Made by a program: the position numbers and the translations under genes
Shown: positions 49,795 to 57,607 of the stretch, piece by piece
Numbering within the stretch: the stretch's first letter is position 1
Layout: every line of letters starts with the position of its first letter
Origin: Acinetobacter guerrae
GTDB lineage: Bacteria > Pseudomonadota > Gammaproteobacteria > Pseudomonadales > Moraxellaceae
Reading direction: 5' to 3'
Assembly (NCBI RefSeq): GCF_009372255.1
Contig: NZ_LXGN01000001.1
Coordinates: 310,001-374,000 of the forward strand
DNA length: 64,000 nt
Notes under the pieces: generated by a model
Told to the model about the DNA's origin: nothing
The model's input: the letters and a program-made list of their open reading frames with translations, nothing else
The model's database searches: none

Positions 49795-50406
49795 TTAAGG
49801 AATTAATCCTTCATCACGCATTGCGATATTCACAGATTGACGTTCAGCAACCTTATTACGAAGAGCAACAATATTTGTGTATGGCGTCAAATCATGTTCA
49901 ATGCCATTTGACCAATTTGTAAGCACAAATAAATAAGCATCAGCAGGGCCAAAACCATCATCTACAAGATATTCATGATCTGACTCACCAATGGCTTTAT
50001 CGATATAAGCCAACAATCGATCAATTTCAGCATAGGCTTTTTCTTTTGCTTCAGCATCCAAAGCACCACCAAAGAATACCGCATAGGCATCATGCAATTC
50101 TGAGTTTAGGTACCCTAACCATTCCAAAACTTTGGCACGACCTAAACCCGATGGTGGAATCAAGTTCTGAGCTGGATCATGCTGCGCAATAAAAGGAAGC
50201 ACTGCAACGTTTTCAGTGAGAACCAATCCTGGTGTAATTTCAAGTGCAGGGACATAACCCTTAGGATTAATTTCATAATAATCCGCACCTTTTTCAGTTT
50301 TATGTGTTTTTAGATCAACCCGTTCAAGATCAAAATCGACATTAATTTCGTTCAAAAGAATATGTGCAGCCAATGAACATGCACCAGGTGAATAATACAA
50401 CTTCAT
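49795..50406 (-). CDS. Glutathione S-transferase
   Basis: MKLYYSPGACSLAAHILLNEINVDFDLERVDL; NPKGYVPALEI. Confidence 0.93.
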   Translation of the reverse strand: MKLYYSPGACSLAAHILLNEINVDFDLERVDLKTHKTEKGADYYEINPKGYVPALEITPGLVLTENVAVLPFIAQHDPAQNLIPPSGLGRAKVLEWLGYLNSELHDAYAVFFGGALDAEAKEKAYAEIDRLLAYIDKAIGESDHEYLVDDGFGPADAYLFVLTNWSNGIEHDLTPYTNIVALRNKVAERQSVNIAMRDEGLIP

Positions 50407-50623
50407 AGATAATCCTTGTTATAGCTCTCTTCACTGTTTTAGAACGCTTTACTCGAACTTTCAAGCTCTACCCGCTTTAAAATTTTTAAAAAACGTAACG
50501 ATCTGAAAATACTTACCATTAGACTATTGAGTAAAATGGCAACTTTTTCAAGTGAAAAACGTTGTCTTTTATAATTACCAATGTGTATGACGAAAAAATG
50601 AACTTTAGATAATTTATTTGAAC

Positions 50624-50663
50624 AAAAAAAGGAAAACCAGTCATATTGCTGTAATAGACTGGT
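50624..50663 (-). terminator. Terminator-like hairpin of the unannotated small unit (minus strand)
   Basis: Minus strand ACCAGTC..GACTGGT stem followed by TTTTCCTTTTTTTG. Confidence 0.6.
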
Positions 50664-50711
50664 CTAAAATAACGCTGTTATTAGAATTTTATCATTATTA
50701 TAAAGTGACAT
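50664..50711 (-). other. Candidate micro-ORF (15 aa, MSLYNNDKILITALF) or part of an sRNA
   Basis: ATG at 50711 preceded by AAAGGGAGAA; stop TAG immediately before terminator hairpin; not in ORF track; coding status unproven. Confidence 0.3.
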
Positions 50712-50792
50712 TTCTCCCTTTAAACTTAAAGTGATAAGTTCTAATTAAAAACTAAAACTTAGATTCAATTTAAAGTGTTTTATATATGACGA

Positions 50793-50812
50793 ACATCCCT
50801 GAAATTGGTGAT
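50793..50812 (-). promoter_or_regulatory. Motif copy A (minus-oriented ATCACCAATTTCAGGGATGT)
   Basis: Direct reading; matches copies B and C. Confidence 0.55.
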
Positions 50813-50848
50813 TTTTACGAGATTTGAATTTTTTTTTGATCTTGTGAT

Positions 50849-50878
50849 AAAAAACCAGTCAATGTAGACTGGTTTTTT
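50849..50878 (-). terminator. Terminator of the adhesin gene (also symmetric on plus strand)
   Basis: AAAAAACCAGTC AATGTA GACTGGTTTTTT, 12-bp perfect arms. Confidence 0.85.
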
Positions 50879-50897
50879 TCATATTTAAAAATTTGTA

Positions 50898-53800
50898 TTA
50901 CCAACTAAAACCTACACCGACACCACCCGAACTTTCCTCTTTACTTAGTGCTCCGCTGATACTCAAACTGGTATTTTCATTAATCATACGTTGATAGCCT
51001 ACAGCAACAGCTTGTTCCGCACCTTGCAGACCAGCCCCAACCCCAATGCGGTTCTGCCCACGCAATCCAGCCGTACTGGTCGCCATATTCATCATGGCTG
51101 CACTCATCGCGCCCTGACGGTCAAAACGTTTGTCAACCTCTTGAAAACGGCGTTCTGTTTGCAGACTATAGTCCTTAAATGTACTCTCCAAACCCGCAAA
51201 ACGAGTATCTGTATAGCTGTTTGCGCTTGAAAGGGTTTCTGAACTTGATGTATTCATTTGCGCAACATTAACGGCATCTGTGTCTGCCGTACCTGCTGCC
51301 ACATGAGTAATTTGACGTTGATTGGTCGCAGAGCCTACAGATACCGTATTGTCTCGATCTGAACTTGAATTATTGCCCAACACTACAGCATTTTTAGCAT
51401 CTGTATTGACGTTATTACCTAACACAAAGGTATTATCACCTTTCACTGTATTGTCATTGCCTACAACATAACTGCCGTTGCCACTGATCGTATTTGGATC
51501 TCCAAAGGCTCCTGATCCATTGCCAGAAACAGTATTACCAACACCCACAGCGGTTGAGTTATTCCCTGTAACCACAGTGTTTGGTCCTATTGCTGTTGAG
51601 TTTTTACCAGTTGCATTTGAACTTGTACTTGCACCAGCGCCATTTCCCCCAATACTGATATATTGTCCTGCATCTGCTACTTTTTGATCAGTATAGGATT
51701 TAGCCGTATTTAAGGTCGATGCGGTTTGTTGGTCGGTATAAGTTTTGGCATCATTCAATGCAGTTGTGGTTTGTTGATCGGTGTAGCTTTTTGAGTCATT
51801 TAAAGATTGTGAGGTTTGTTGATCTGTATAAGATTTTGCATCATTGAGATTTTTGGCATCTTGTTGGTCAATATAAGATTTTGCATTTGCCAGTGTGCCT
51901 GAGCTTTGTGTATCCGTGTAGGTATTTGCATCGGATAAAGTTTTAGCATCTTGCTGATCAACATAATTTTTTAGGTTGCTCACAGAACCTTTTAATGCGG
52001 TTAATTCATTATTCACAGCACCAAAGGTGGCACCAATATTAGAATAACTTGTGCCCTGAATCGTAAAGGTCGGTAATGTAAATACGCCATTATTGAATCC
52101 CGCTCCGCCACCTAATACAGAAGCTAATTGATTTGCGCTACTACTAAACTGCGTTGATAATGTGCTGATATTTTGATTGGTCGTATAAAGCTGCCCACCC
52201 GTAACTGCATCTTTAGAATTGCTTGAACTGATATCACCCGCTTGTAGATTGGTGAGTTTTGTTCCGCTCTGGCCCGTCAAAGTAATTGTTTCTTTTGATG
52301 AATTGTCATAAACAACAGCATTAGCCGAAATATTACCCAAACCTGTTTGTAAGGCTGAAATATTATTGGTATTTGTGGTGATTTTGCCATCTAAAACCAA
52401 ATCCTTTTGATCTGCATAACTTTTTGCATCATTTAATGTATTAGACAAACCTGTCGTTAATGCACTTGTCGATGCCTTCGTATCCAAACCTGTCGTTGCA
52501 TCATTAACTTTGCTATTTAATGCATCAAATGTAGTTTTATCAGTTTTTAAAGCTAGACCATCAGTTAAATCAGACTGTGACGCTTTTGTAGCCAAACCAG
52601 TATCTACATAGCCTTTATTAGCAGCATCTGTTGCTTGAGTTGGTGTTGCAACATTGGTAATGCGTTTTTCAGCACCACTACGACCAACGGAAATAGTATT
52701 CGCTTCATTGGCTACGGAATCATGACCTATCGCAGTTGAACCATAAGCTGTAGCCTGACTACTACTACCGAAAACACTACTATAAATAGCGGATGCCGTA
52801 TTATTTGAACCTACGGCAGTGGAAACACCACCTATTGACTTGTTTGAAACACCTAGACTTGTGCTATTTACGCCTAGCGCCTGATTGTCATAGCCCACCG
52901 CACTACTTTGAACACCTAATGCAATATTATGTGAACCAACCGCAGCACTACGATCACCAAATGCCACGGAACCACCATTGCGAAGCGTGGTTTCAAAATC
53001 TGCTACTTGTTGTGAATTTACAGATGTATCACCAATTTTGGTAATAGATGCGGTCGTTAAATTTGTTGCCTCGACTTTAATGCCATTAATAGCAGTGAGC
53101 TTTGTCCCATCATCTTCTGCATTATAGTTTTGTCCACTGGCTGCCCCCACAACGGTTGAACCACTACCTTTTGCCAAGTTTTGTGAACCTGCGGCGAAGC
53201 TCCCTGTGCCATTTGCTTTATTATAAGTACCAACCGCATTACTTCCTTTTCCAGAAACAGTATTGCTAATCCCTAAGCCAGCACTTTCATCTTGAGTAAC
53301 ATTGTTATTAAAACCGATACCAGTACTAAACACACCATTTACAGTATTTTGACTACCAATTGCGTTGGAGAACATACCGTTTGCAGTATTACTTGATCCT
53401 ATTGCATTGCTTGAGCTACCTAATGCAGTGTTTGAATTACCAAATGCGCTACTAGAATCCCCTGACGCTGTGTTACTTCTACCTACCGCACTACTAGAAT
53501 CAGCCAATGCAATATTATTAGAACCAATGGCGCTACTTAAACTAGCCATTGCCCGATTATAATCACCAATAGCACTGCTCGCCTCACCATTTGTAGTATT
53601 ATCAGAGCCGAATGCGCTACTTTGCTTTCCTTGCGCTCTGTTGGAATCACCTACAGCGCTAGCAGACTCGCCTGATGCAATGTTTGAATTACCCACAGCA
53701 TTACTCGATTCACCAGATGCAGTATTCCAATACCCTAAAGCACTACTTCCATTAGCTTCGGTTAAATTAAATCGTCCGATTGCATTACTTGCCTCACCTA

Positions 53801-54857
53801 TTGCCGTATTTCCGTCGCCCATAGCACTGCTATATTTTCCTGAAGCTTTGTTAGACGACCCTATGGCATTACTTAATAAACCAGAAGCGATATTAGAGGA
53901 TCCCATGGAGGAGCTATAAGCACCAATTGCAATATTAGCGCCTTTTTTGGCAGCATTTTTAAAAGCAGCTACTTGAGTTGGATTTGTTATAAAATTGCCA
54001 TCAGGTAATGTAATTGACGTGATATCATCGATATTGTTTGTTGTTGCGGTAACTGTAATACCCGCGACACTTGTCAGTTGCGTCCCATTACTTTCTGAAT
54101 TATAAGCTGTACCGGATGCAGCACCTAAAGCAGTATCCGTTGAACTACGGGCATAGTTATCACTTGCCACTGCTGTTGGAATGGCTGCAATTGCAGTATC
54201 AACATAGCCTTTATTAGCTGCATCTGTTGCTTGAGTTGGGGTTGCAACATTAATAATTTGACGTTGCGTAGTCGTACTTCCAACCGAAAAACTGTTATTT
54301 CTATCCGCGATAGAATTTGCGCCAATGGCGACACTATTAATTCCACTCGCTTTTGCTTGATTACCAATAGCAACATTACCAATTCTTTTTGCAACAGCAT
54401 CTGTTCCGATCGCCACTCCGCTTACCGCCGCCGCCGCACCACCAATTGCCACAGCATGATCTAATGCCAGAGTGAGATTTGTACAATCCCCCCCAATTGC
54501 TATAGCACCATCAACAGGGTTTGAAAATCCAACAATTGCAGACATAGAGCCTGCAGAAGTTAACCCTAACTGACCATCTATATCTTCTATAAAGTCAGCA
54601 GCAGTAACAGAAGTAGGACAACTCACACCTTGAACAATATTCCCTGCCCAAACATTAGCACCGATAATGGTTGCAATACTTAAAACCAGAGTTTGCAAAC
54701 CAAATATCCGACGTTTACTTATATCTATAGTTAAAACCTCAGAACTAGCCATTGCCCCAGTGATATGATCGGTTTTCCCTGCACTTTTAGCATTTTCCGA
54801 AACCACCACCATCTGCCCCAGTGATTTATTCCAGATCAGTTTAAAAATCTTGTTCAT
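50898..54857 (-). CDS. Trimeric autotransporter adhesin (YadA/Ata-like), 1319 aa
   Basis: ESPR MNKIFKLIWNKSLGQMVVVSENAKSAGK; YadA head repeats; NVATPTQATDAANKGYVD neck; C-terminal YadA anchor RIGVGAGLQGAEQAVAVGYQRMINENTSLSISGALS...VGVGFSW. Confidence 0.95.
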   Translation of the reverse strand: MNKIFKLIWNKSLGQMVVVSENAKSAGKTDHITGAMASSEVLTIDISKRRIFGLQTLVLSIATIIGANVWAGNIVQGVSCPTSVTAADFIEDIDGQLGLTSAGSMSAIVGFSNPVDGAIAIGGDCTNLTLALDHAVAIGGAAAAVSGVAIGTDAVAKRIGNVAIGNQAKASGINSVAIGANSIADRNNSFSVGSTTTQRQIINVATPTQATDAANKGYVDTAIAAIPTAVASDNYARSSTDTALGAASGTAYNSESNGTQLTSVAGITVTATTNNIDDITSITLPDGNFITNPTQVAAFKNAAKKGANIAIGAYSSSMGSSNIASGLLSNAIGSSNKASGKYSSAMGDGNTAIGEASNAIGRFNLTEANGSSALGYWNTASGESSNAVGNSNIASGESASAVGDSNRAQGKQSSAFGSDNTTNGEASSAIGDYNRAMASLSSAIGSNNIALADSSSAVGRSNTASGDSSSAFGNSNTALGSSSNAIGSSNTANGMFSNAIGSQNTVNGVFSTGIGFNNNVTQDESAGLGISNTVSGKGSNAVGTYNKANGTGSFAAGSQNLAKGSGSTVVGAASGQNYNAEDDGTKLTAINGIKVEATNLTTASITKIGDTSVNSQQVADFETTLRNGGSVAFGDRSAAVGSHNIALGVQSSAVGYDNQALGVNSTSLGVSNKSIGGVSTAVGSNNTASAIYSSVFGSSSQATAYGSTAIGHDSVANEANTISVGRSGAEKRITNVATPTQATDAANKGYVDTGLATKASQSDLTDGLALKTDKTTFDALNSKVNDATTGLDTKASTSALTTGLSNTLNDAKSYADQKDLVLDGKITTNTNNISALQTGLGNISANAVVYDNSSKETITLTGQSGTKLTNLQAGDISSSNSKDAVTGGQLYTTNQNISTLSTQFSSSANQLASVLGGGAGFNNGVFTLPTFTIQGTSYSNIGATFGAVNNELTALKGSVSNLKNYVDQQDAKTLSDANTYTDTQSSGTLANAKSYIDQQDAKNLNDAKSYTDQQTSQSLNDSKSYTDQQTTTALNDAKTYTDQQTASTLNTAKSYTDQKVADAGQYISIGGNGAGASTSSNATGKNSTAIGPNTVVTGNNSTAVGVGNTVSGNGSGAFGDPNTISGNGSYVVGNDNTVKGDNTFVLGNNVNTDAKNAVVLGNNSSSDRDNTVSVGSATNQRQITHVAAGTADTDAVNVAQMNTSSSETLSSANSYTDTRFAGLESTFKDYSLQTERRFQEVDKRFDRQGAMSAAMMNMATSTAGLRGQNRIGVGAGLQGAEQAVAVGYQRMINENTSLSISGALSKEESSGGVGVGFSW
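51654..51968 (-). repeat. Seven 15-residue (45-nt) coiled-coil stalk repeats within adhesin
   Basis: NYVDQQDAKTLSDAN / TYTDTQSSGTLANAK / SYIDQQDAKNLNDAK / SYTDQQTSQSLNDSK / SYTDQQTTTALNDAK / TYTDQQTASTLNTAK / SYTDQKVADAGQYIS. Confidence 0.85.
53160..53915 (-). repeat. Eighteen contiguous 14-residue (42-nt) YadA-head repeats within adhesin
   Basis: SSSMGSSNIASGLL ... SFAAGSQNLAKGSG, gapless register, 756 nt. Confidence 0.88.
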
Positions 54858-54931
54858 ATGTCCATCCCCGCCGATTATTTTGTGATTTAAATTTATGCAC
54901 TTATTATTTGAACATGATCACAAGTTTTCCA

Positions 54932-54951
54932 ATATCCCTGAAATTAGTGAT
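54932..54951 (-). promoter_or_regulatory. Motif copy B (minus-oriented ATCACTAATTTCAGGGATAT), upstream of adhesin
   Basis: 74 nt between motif and adhesin ATG. Confidence 0.6.
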
Positions 54952-54972
54952 ATTTTTGTTGTCTATTGGAAA

Positions 54973-54992
54973 ATACCCAATCTCAGGGATAT
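54973..54992 (+). promoter_or_regulatory. Motif copy C (plus-oriented ATACCCAATCTCAGGGATAT), upstream of response regulator
   Basis: 36 nt between motif and regulator ATG; divergent from copy B. Confidence 0.6.
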
Positions 54993-55028
54993 AAAAAGTA
55001 AAAAAATATTGGCAAATTAGGGGAAGAA

Positions 55029-55736
55029 ATGAATCTTTTGAGTAATGTAATGCTGGATCCAGACTTGGTTTTACCTGTACCCGTCATTGTGGTTGAGGAT
55101 GAACCACTCATTCAAAAAAGGCTAAAAGAAATATTATTAGGTATTGGCTATTTACCAGAAAATCTTATTTTTGCACAAACTTTAGCTCAAGCTCATGAAC
55201 AACTGAAACAACATTCTGCATCTTTGGCGTTGGTTGATTTAGGCTTACCTGATGGCAACGGTATAGATTTTATCAAACAACTAAAAATATATGACCCAAC
55301 CATCGCGATTTTAGTCATCTCGGCATGGAGTACGGAGGATGCGATTTTAAATGCACTGATAGCAGGTGCAACGGGCTATGTACTTAAAGAACGTGATGAT
55401 ATTGAAGTCGCCCTATCTATCCGTAGTATTTTACGTGGTGGCGCGCCTATCGACCCTTTTATCGCTCGTCAAATCTTAAAACAACTTCCTTCATCTAATG
55501 AACACATTGAGAAAAAAAATATTGAAAATGAGATAGATGACGCTTTACTTTCCAAACGTGAACATGAAATATTATTACTGGTTGCGCAAGGTTTAAGTAA
55601 TAAAGAAATTGCCAGCCAGATCAATTTGTCACGTTATACGGTTGAGTCTCATATCAAGCACATTTATCGGAAACTTGCAGTATGTACACGCATCAAGGCA
55701 GTCGATACTGCAAGATCACTTGGTTTGCTCGATTAA
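55029..55736 (+). CDS. NarL/FixJ-type response regulator (REC + LuxR HTH)
   Basis: VIVVEDEPLIQKRL, LVDLGLPDGNGIDFI; SKREHEILLLVAQGLSNKEIASQINLSRYTVESHIKHIYRKL. Confidence 0.95.
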   Translation: MNLLSNVMLDPDLVLPVPVIVVEDEPLIQKRLKEILLGIGYLPENLIFAQTLAQAHEQLKQHSASLALVDLGLPDGNGIDFIKQLKIYDPTIAILVISAWSTEDAILNALIAGATGYVLKERDDIEVALSIRSILRGGAPIDPFIARQILKQLPSSNEHIEKKNIENEIDDALLSKREHEILLLVAQGLSNKEIASQINLSRYTVESHIKHIYRKLAVCTRIKAVDTARSLGLLD

Positions 55737-57607
55737 AATCTTTTTTTTCTTGCTGCTTATTTATGTTAGTTGGCAGTATTGCTCAAATTCATGCCTCATC
55801 ATTGAATGAATTGGTATTGCTCCCCAAAGACCATAACTGCCATGTCAATATCATCAATATTCAATCTATTCAAACCTCTCCAGACACCCAGATTAGCGAT
55901 ATAAATAAACTTACTAATTGGCAAACGGTAAAATTACCTGATTTTTGGGAAAATCGTTGGAAAAATTATTCTGGTATAGTTTGGTATCGCATTTTATGGT
56001 CAAAAGCCTGTCAAACTTCTCAGACTGAACCACTTGCCTTAAATATTGACAGTATCAATATGGCAGGAGAAGTTTATTTAAATAAACAATTGATTTGGCG
56101 CGATAAAAATCTGACCGAACCTTTAAGTCGTAGTTGGAATATGCCGCGCTATTGGGTTTTACCCAATTCAGAGCTTAAACAAGGTGAAAACGAATTTTTG
56201 ATTCGGGTTGTAGGCATCTCTACACAAAGTCCTGGTTTAGGCAAAGTTTATATTGGTACTCCACATGCGATTATTGAACAAAATTCAAAATATGTATTTG
56301 AACATCGCACGCTGTATTTTATTAATTTAGTTATTTCCCTAACGCTTGGTGCTATTGCTTTTCTAGTGTGGCTGCTGCGTAGAAAAGACTCAACCTTTGG
56401 TTGGTTTGCTTTGGCTTCTTTGCTATGGGGACTTTTTATTAGCAATATTTTAGCCACCGAAACTTATCCATTTTTATATACGCTGCAACTTGCTAAGATT
56501 AATATGTTGTTTCTAGTGGGTTATGTGATTTCTTTTACAATTTACACGTGGCGTTTTGCAGGGAAAAAATATAAAAAGATCGAAAATTTGCTTTGGCTAA
56601 CTGGCTTCATCGGTGGTGTAGGACTATTTATAGCACCGTCTTCGTACATAGGGCTTATTCTTTTTCTTCTCTTTTTGTTTGTAACCATTGTATTTTTAGC
56701 CTGCTGTATTTTTTATCAATGGATTGCTTATAAAACACCTAAAGCAGATATCCGTTTCCTTGCCCTAATTTTACTTGGTTTTATTGGGATCAATATCCAT
56801 GACGTTTATCTGATTTTGACTCAAAATACTGAACATACTTATATTACCCCTTTTGCAGCACCATTAACTGCATTAGCTATTTCTATGATATTGGCTTGGC
56901 GGATTGCACAAAACGTTAATCATATTGAAGAATTTAATCAAACATTGACACAAAGCGTAGAGCGAGTTAGCGCCGATTTAAAAAATTCTTTAGATAAAAA
57001 GCATCAACTTGAAATCGAAAATATGCGTTTGCAGGAACGGCTCAGCCTTTCTCATGAACTACATGATGGCTTAGGCGGCTCTTTGGTACGTTCCATGATT
57101 TTAGTCGATAAAAGTGATGATATTGATAAACAACATTTTTTATCAATTTTAAAACTTTTACGTAATGATTTACGCCAAGTCATCGACAGTGGCTCTACAA
57201 TTGGCGCAAAAGTTCCAGAATCACCCATTGTTTGGGCATCCTCAATTCGTAGGAGGTTTGTACAGCTTTTTGAAGAACTTGAAATTGAATCAAAATGGCA
57301 ATTGCCCAATCATTGGCTCACACAACCAACAGCCTTGCAATGCCTAACGCTTGCACGTGTCGCCGAAGAAGCATTGACCAATATTATTAAACACAGTCAT
57401 GCAACATTGGTTAAAGTCAGTTTATCTCAGGAAGATCAACAATTAATCCTTGAAATTGAAGATAATGGCATTGGTTTTGATCCACTTACTGTTCAAGAAG
57501 GCTTACATGTTGGCTTGCAAAGTATGCAGATCAGGGTTCATCGTATTGGGGGAAATTTTGAAATTTATTCTAAAACAGGACAAACCCTGATTCGAGTCAA
57601 ATTATAA
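55682..57607 (+). CDS. 7TMR-DISM-like sensor histidine kinase (HisKA_3/HATPase)
   Basis: Periplasmic jelly-roll-like N-terminal domain, ~7 TMs, SLSHELHDGLGGSLVR H-box, EEALTNIIKHSHA and IEDNGIGFD N/G boxes; 55-nt overlap with regulator. Confidence 0.9.
   Translation: MYTHQGSRYCKITWFARLKSFFSCCLFMLVGSIAQIHASSLNELVLLPKDHNCHVNIINIQSIQTSPDTQISDINKLTNWQTVKLPDFWENRWKNYSGIVWYRILWSKACQTSQTEPLALNIDSINMAGEVYLNKQLIWRDKNLTEPLSRSWNMPRYWVLPNSELKQGENEFLIRVVGISTQSPGLGKVYIGTPHAIIEQNSKYVFEHRTLYFINLVISLTLGAIAFLVWLLRRKDSTFGWFALASLLWGLFISNILATETYPFLYTLQLAKINMLFLVGYVISFTIYTWRFAGKKYKKIENLLWLTGFIGGVGLFIAPSSYIGLILFLLFLFVTIVFLACCIFYQWIAYKTPKADIRFLALILLGFIGINIHDVYLILTQNTEHTYITPFAAPLTALAISMILAWRIAQNVNHIEEFNQTLTQSVERVSADLKNSLDKKHQLEIENMRLQERLSLSHELHDGLGGSLVRSMILVDKSDDIDKQHFLSILKLLRNDLRQVIDSGSTIGAKVPESPIVWASSIRRRFVQLFEELEIESKWQLPNHWLTQPTALQCLTLARVAEEALTNIIKHSHATLVKVSLSQEDQQLILEIEDNGIGFDPLTVQEGLHVGLQSMQIRVHRIGGNFEIYSKTGQTLIRVKL

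Follow-up and report, generated by a model that had tools for sequence, protein, structure and literature searches.

Three copies of a 20-letter motif lie at an adhesin gene and its neighbouring two-component system in the 64-kb window, the whole stretch of Acinetobacter DNA analysed here, and raise the question whether they are binding sites of the adjacent response regulator and whether they define a regulon of their own, as an earlier note had proposed from the sequence of the window. The adhesin (50898-54857, minus strand; 1319 aa) is by its profile matches a trimeric autotransporter with an ESPR, YadA head repeats, a stalk and an anchor, and with PF13018, PF05658, PF05662 and PF03895 all above their cut-offs it falls into type Vc. 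It thus shares the YadA type with AtaA of Acinetobacter sp. Tol 5 and Ata of A. baumannii, which are trimeric autotransporter adhesins as well (PMC3498257, PMC6363060), but lies outside the Ata family, as it scores 83 bits against a cut-off of 2500 with NCBIfam NF033481. We found no report that links AtaA or Ata to this regulator or motif.

The regulator, annotated at 55029-55736 on the plus strand, is of the NarL/FixJ type, with a receiver domain (PF00072, 67.9 bits) and a GerE helix-turn-helix (PF00196, 65.7 bits), both above cut-off, and its best relatives in the PDB are DevR, NarL and VraR. It is not NarL proper (91 bits against a cut-off of 250 for the curated equivalog NF007935), and none of the NCBIfam equivalogs fits it. 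The phospho-acceptor D70 and the conserved receiver lysine K120 are invariant in 16 family members, and the recognition-helix region TVESHIKHIYRK is largely invariant among regulators of 59-97% identity. Since the orthologues begin at the matching residue, 54-57 nt from their own motif, the true start probably is the next ATG at 55050, seven codons after the annotated one, which puts the regulator 57 nt from its motif. Overlapping the regulator gene is that of a sensor histidine kinase with a 7TMR-DISM membrane domain and a HATPase domain (55682-57607, plus strand; profile matches, start codon approximate).

The positions and orientations given for the motif in the earlier note, 50793-50812 (minus), 54932-54951 (minus) and 54973-54992 (plus), are accurate, and the start codons named there do lie 81, 74 and 36 nt away; the copies deviate from the consensus proposed there by 1, 1 and 3 mismatches, respectively. 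No further copy with up to 3 mismatches is present in the window, and 0.00 were expected in shuffles. Site A (ATCACTAATTTCAGGGATAT, 54932-54951, minus; PWM score 27.1 of 34.3) lies in the adhesin promoter and site B (ATACCCAATCTCAGGGATAT, 54973-54992, plus; 31.5) in that of the regulator operon. Both are contained in the divergent intergenic region of 171 bp, their centres 41 bp apart. Site C (ATCACCAATTTCAGGGATGT, 50793-50812, minus; 24.4) precedes a small unit behind the adhesin gene. Alignment with the orthologous loci of three close species indicates that the motif is conserved, site A and the spacing of 41 bp in G115, G040 and G170 and site C in G115 and G170, and a counterpart of site B is kept before regulator orthologues of several genera.

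The small unit behind the adhesin

Site C stands between the adhesin's bidirectional terminator-like hairpin (50849-50878) and the small unit, which consists of a -10 box TTAAAT (50768-50773, minus; sequence inspection), a 15-codon open reading frame of uncertain coding role (MSLYNNDKILITALF, 50664-50711, minus; sequence inspection and alignment) with the Shine-Dalgarno sequence AAGGGAG, and a terminator-like hairpin with T-run (ACCAGTC...GACTGGT, 50622-50663, minus), recognized by eye, of which stem and T-run are kept in G115 and G170. The two terminators share the stem ACCAGTC/GACTGGT. Of the four close species three carry the unit (G000, which is the genome of the window, G115 and G170), and it was not detected in the plasmid collection. 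From G040 it is missing, a single terminator stem being left at the junction, and this genome looks to have lost it by deletion between the two similar terminators.

Such a loss at repeated stems, together with the loss of the stop codon in G170, would fit a leftover promoter-terminator segment rather than a functional gene. We regard this as possible though rather doubtful, as the site, the -10 box, the block of Shine-Dalgarno sequence and ATG (GAGGGAGAAATGnCACTTTATAA), the ATTCTAATAACA block and the terminator stem are all shared by three species whose leader sequences have drifted. What a functional unit would encode is a separate matter. A peptide role is unproven, since most of the codon changes alter the amino acid and G170 has lost the stop codon, and judged from this alignment a regulatory RNA appears at least as likely. 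A search of Rfam gave no credible match in the region 50400-55100, the small unit included, and predicted RNA duplexes of the unit with the 5' ends of the adhesin, regulator, GST and two-partner-secretion (TPS) genes lie within about 2 standard deviations of shuffles.

Promoter geometry and distribution of the site

Column counts over 58 non-redundant Acinetobacter sites, aligned on the motif, reveal an imperfect dyad ATAYCC-N8-GGRTAT with AAA immediately 5' of it and a T..AAT hexamer at +21 to +26. Of 56 non-redundant Acinetobacter sites, 42 have a -10-like hexamer 20-21 bp after the motif as compared to 2-15 at other offsets, and the -10 box had played no part in the choice of the sites. In 30 of 43 regulator promoters, those of Acinetobacter included, the -10 box at this offset is the poorer [CT]A.A.T. 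In the window the adhesin promoter has the -10 box TCAAAT (54906-54911, minus; +21 to +26 after site A), and the regulator promoter the weak -10-like box CAAATT (55013-55018, plus). The site alignment shows no conserved -35 hexamer downstream of the dyad. The sites thus keep a fixed spacing to the -10 box and overlap the -35 position, as in a class II activator-dependent sigma-70 promoter, and with the start site taken as 6-7 nt after the -10 box the centre of the dyad would be near -42.5, where classical activator sites lie. The lux box at -42.5, an example of the class II promoters activated by LuxR/NarL proteins, is likewise a dyad of about 20 bp that takes the place of the -35 element, with a fixed spacing to the -10 box. 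To our knowledge, neither the half-site ATAYCC nor this regulator family is among the known class II LuxR/NarL activators. Sites of NarL proper are TACYYMT heptamers in a 7-2-7 arrangement and differ from the present dyad in spacing.

A relaxed pattern matches the 3.42-Mb genome of the window perfectly at four places, the next match being two mismatches off. The fourth copy, 86 kb away on the minus strand (G000:C1:274861), lies 75 nt before the gene of a TPS exoprotein of 1513 aa with an ESPR, followed by the gene of its ShlB/FhaC transporter. A -10-like box lies 20-21 bp after all four good sites, and after essentially no other match, the weakest being that of the regulator promoter. The proposal of a self-contained local regulon is not supported, given a promoter 86 kb away at a TPS system and, in other species, targets scattered over the genome. 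Two other ESPR genes of the same genome are without the site, which therefore is not a general feature of ESPR genes. A fourth ESPR start (G000:C59:63614-63724) begins a frame of just 116 aa and possibly belongs to a broken exoprotein gene. A candidate fifth site (C56:313241, kept in G040 and G115) was rejected, as it has no -10 box and apparently lies within coding sequence.

Across 149 Acinetobacter genomes, that of the window included, 81 sites were found as compared to 3 in the reversed control. The site is present in 47 of the 79 genomes with an orthologue of the regulator versus 5 of the 70 without (Fisher p 3.8e-12, not corrected for relatedness). In the remaining 32 genomes with an orthologue no site with up to 2 mismatches is present; some of these genomes contain diverged sites, and A. 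lwoffii has no autoregulatory site. Sites in G098, G132, G079:C3 and G066 were dropped for want of a -10 box. Beyond the genus, a scan of genome contigs yielded relatives of the regulator at 80 loci. Upstream of their genes the dyad occurs again in Achromobacter (e.g. ATACCCAATTTCAGGGATGT), Delftia, Comamonas, Pseudomonas, Stutzerimonas, Lampropedia, Ottowia and others, in most cases on the strand of the gene and between about -57 and -125; controls with the reversed sequence were mostly negative. The flanks at these loci do not align, yet the dyad and its distance to the -10 box are kept at the regulator's own gene. Pseudomonas cuatrocienegasensis has two further sites, before two ESPR-TPS exoproteins.

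The candidate binder and its effect

Conservation of the site and of its -10 distance at the regulator's own gene within otherwise unalignable DNA is the best evidence as to what may bind. Because of this conservation at its own promoter across genera, the co-occurrence of site and orthologue and the fixed -10 geometry, the comparison strongly supports the proposal of the earlier note that the neighbouring NarL-type regulator binds the motif. We consider it very probable that this regulator uses the motif as its operator and thereby activates the adhesin, the TPS exoprotein, the regulator-kinase operon and the small unit. Binding, its dependence on phosphorylation and the sign of regulation we infer from sites, a geometry and targets that are themselves seen in the comparison. 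In the mechanism that we propose, the 7TMR-DISM kinase would phosphorylate the NarL/FixJ-type regulator, a dimer of which would then occupy the dyad ATAYCC-N8-GGRTAT, with its centre near -42.5, and, by class II activation, activate RNA polymerase at promoters that have a -10 but no -35 element. This would switch on the trimeric autotransporter adhesin, the TPS exoprotein and the small unit behind the adhesin, and by way of the weaker -10 box also the regulator-kinase operon, probably as a feedback loop.

But might another NarL-type regulator, paralogous or additional, read the dyad, so that the neighbour is only one of several factors? Paralogues of 35-51% identity do lie near the motif or are preceded by it (G122:C1:1400322; G037, G074 and G133, in the latter three of which the sites are a few hundred bases from the paralogous gene). 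Moreover, five genomes carry the motif but no orthologue, and the sites in three of these (G033, G130 and G133) are convincing; two of the three carry a paralogue, and G033 keeps its site with no clear one. We nevertheless hold this to be improbable, in view of the strong co-occurrence of the site with the orthologue, the autoregulatory position conserved across genera and the fact that only one regulator gene in the genome of the window has the site. About equally unlikely, in our estimate, is that the adjacent regulator represses these promoters. Binding near a promoter can cause repression, the -10 box is consistently poorer at regulator promoters, and PprB of Pseudomonas aeruginosa controls itself negatively (PMC6821963). 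However, a fixed place at -35 where no -35 hexamer is conserved is the signature of activator dependence, and a repressor site would be expected to vary in position. Finally, that the copies arose by chance or belong to a dispersed repeat family is refuted for practical purposes by the shuffles, the reversed control, the fixed -10 spacing and flanks that are unrelated between genera.

Known systems and targets elsewhere in the genus

That a two-component system turns on adhesins is known already. In P. aeruginosa PprAB, a NarL/LuxR-type regulator with a dedicated kinase, turns on CupE, Tad/Flp and BapA, and PprB binds its own promoter (PMC3510237, PMC6821963). By description, both systems are regulator-kinase pairs for a set of surface adhesion systems, but the targets differ, and the PprB site GGCTAATAC (PMC6821963) is not contained in the conserved columns ATAYCC-N8-GGRTAT. 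In Burkholderia thailandensis the NarL/FixJ regulator of BfmSR lies beside the csu adhesin locus, is needed for its promoter and, by inference, activates its own expression; a small unannotated open reading frame lies in between (PMC12124856). This likeness, too, is one of description. BfmSR controls an archaic chaperone-usher pilus, and we found no operator for it described in that paper. The regulator family, the operator, the promoter geometry and the target set described here appear to be new; within the open-access literature, to which our search extended, we found no published description of this operator or regulator. How type V adhesins are switched on in environmental Acinetobacter and their relatives is poorly known, and a precise operator of fixed geometry, a regulator-kinase pair and a short list of targets make the regulon directly testable. 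With the operator as a query, further genomes can also be searched for adhesins, small proteins and small RNAs that belong to this programme.

Elsewhere in the genus the site precedes YadA-type or other ESPR adhesins (G115, G040, G051, G144, G014, G044, G075, G068), TPS-like exoproteins with an ESPR of the MNKIYKVIWN type (G000, assigned by Pfam; G079, G127 and G093, by similar N-termini), a PATR autotransporter in G100 and a type IV pilin-like gene in G034. It also precedes a family of membrane proteins of 27-32 aa (MDLYLVAIGFLLLIALLLAVSIFRSRF and relatives). These single-helix proteins (MDLYL...LLLIALLL...SMYKSRF), encoded about 75 nt after the motif in L156, L158, L159, L134, L151 and L162, are too short for normal annotation.

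Some sites precede RNAs without an open reading frame, one class of which, in at least 14 genomes, has a long hairpin of about 18 bp and an inner G-rich hairpin with stem sequences that vary by clade. The folds are single-sequence folds, and since MAFFT slips by one column there the pair counts understate covariation. This hairpin RNA is a candidate new small-RNA family of A. lwoffii-like and other Acinetobacter (L163:1056-1210, L160:1055-1209, L143:1021-1175 and 11 more loci), and the eight loci tested had no match in Rfam. Tentatively, we can imagine a hitherto undescribed adhesion regulator, common to several genera, that would switch on adhesins together with dedicated regulatory RNAs, namely the Acinetobacter hairpin family and the small unit, from one operator. 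If so, the sticky state would be controlled at both the transcriptional and the post-transcriptional level by way of a single operator.

A second class of transcripts without an open reading frame behind the operator has a terminator of the GCTTATCC..GGATAAGC type (L129, L058, L136, L166, L137), the sites near a paralogous regulator gene in G037, G074 and G133 being noted with this class. In G093 a copy of the motif also lies behind an adhesin gene (L040:13578-13597), and the place of the small unit is taken there by a different one, a 28-aa open reading frame with a lipobox-like LIGC (MHTQKTLIYIAVMQVILIGCNSIYFFLS).
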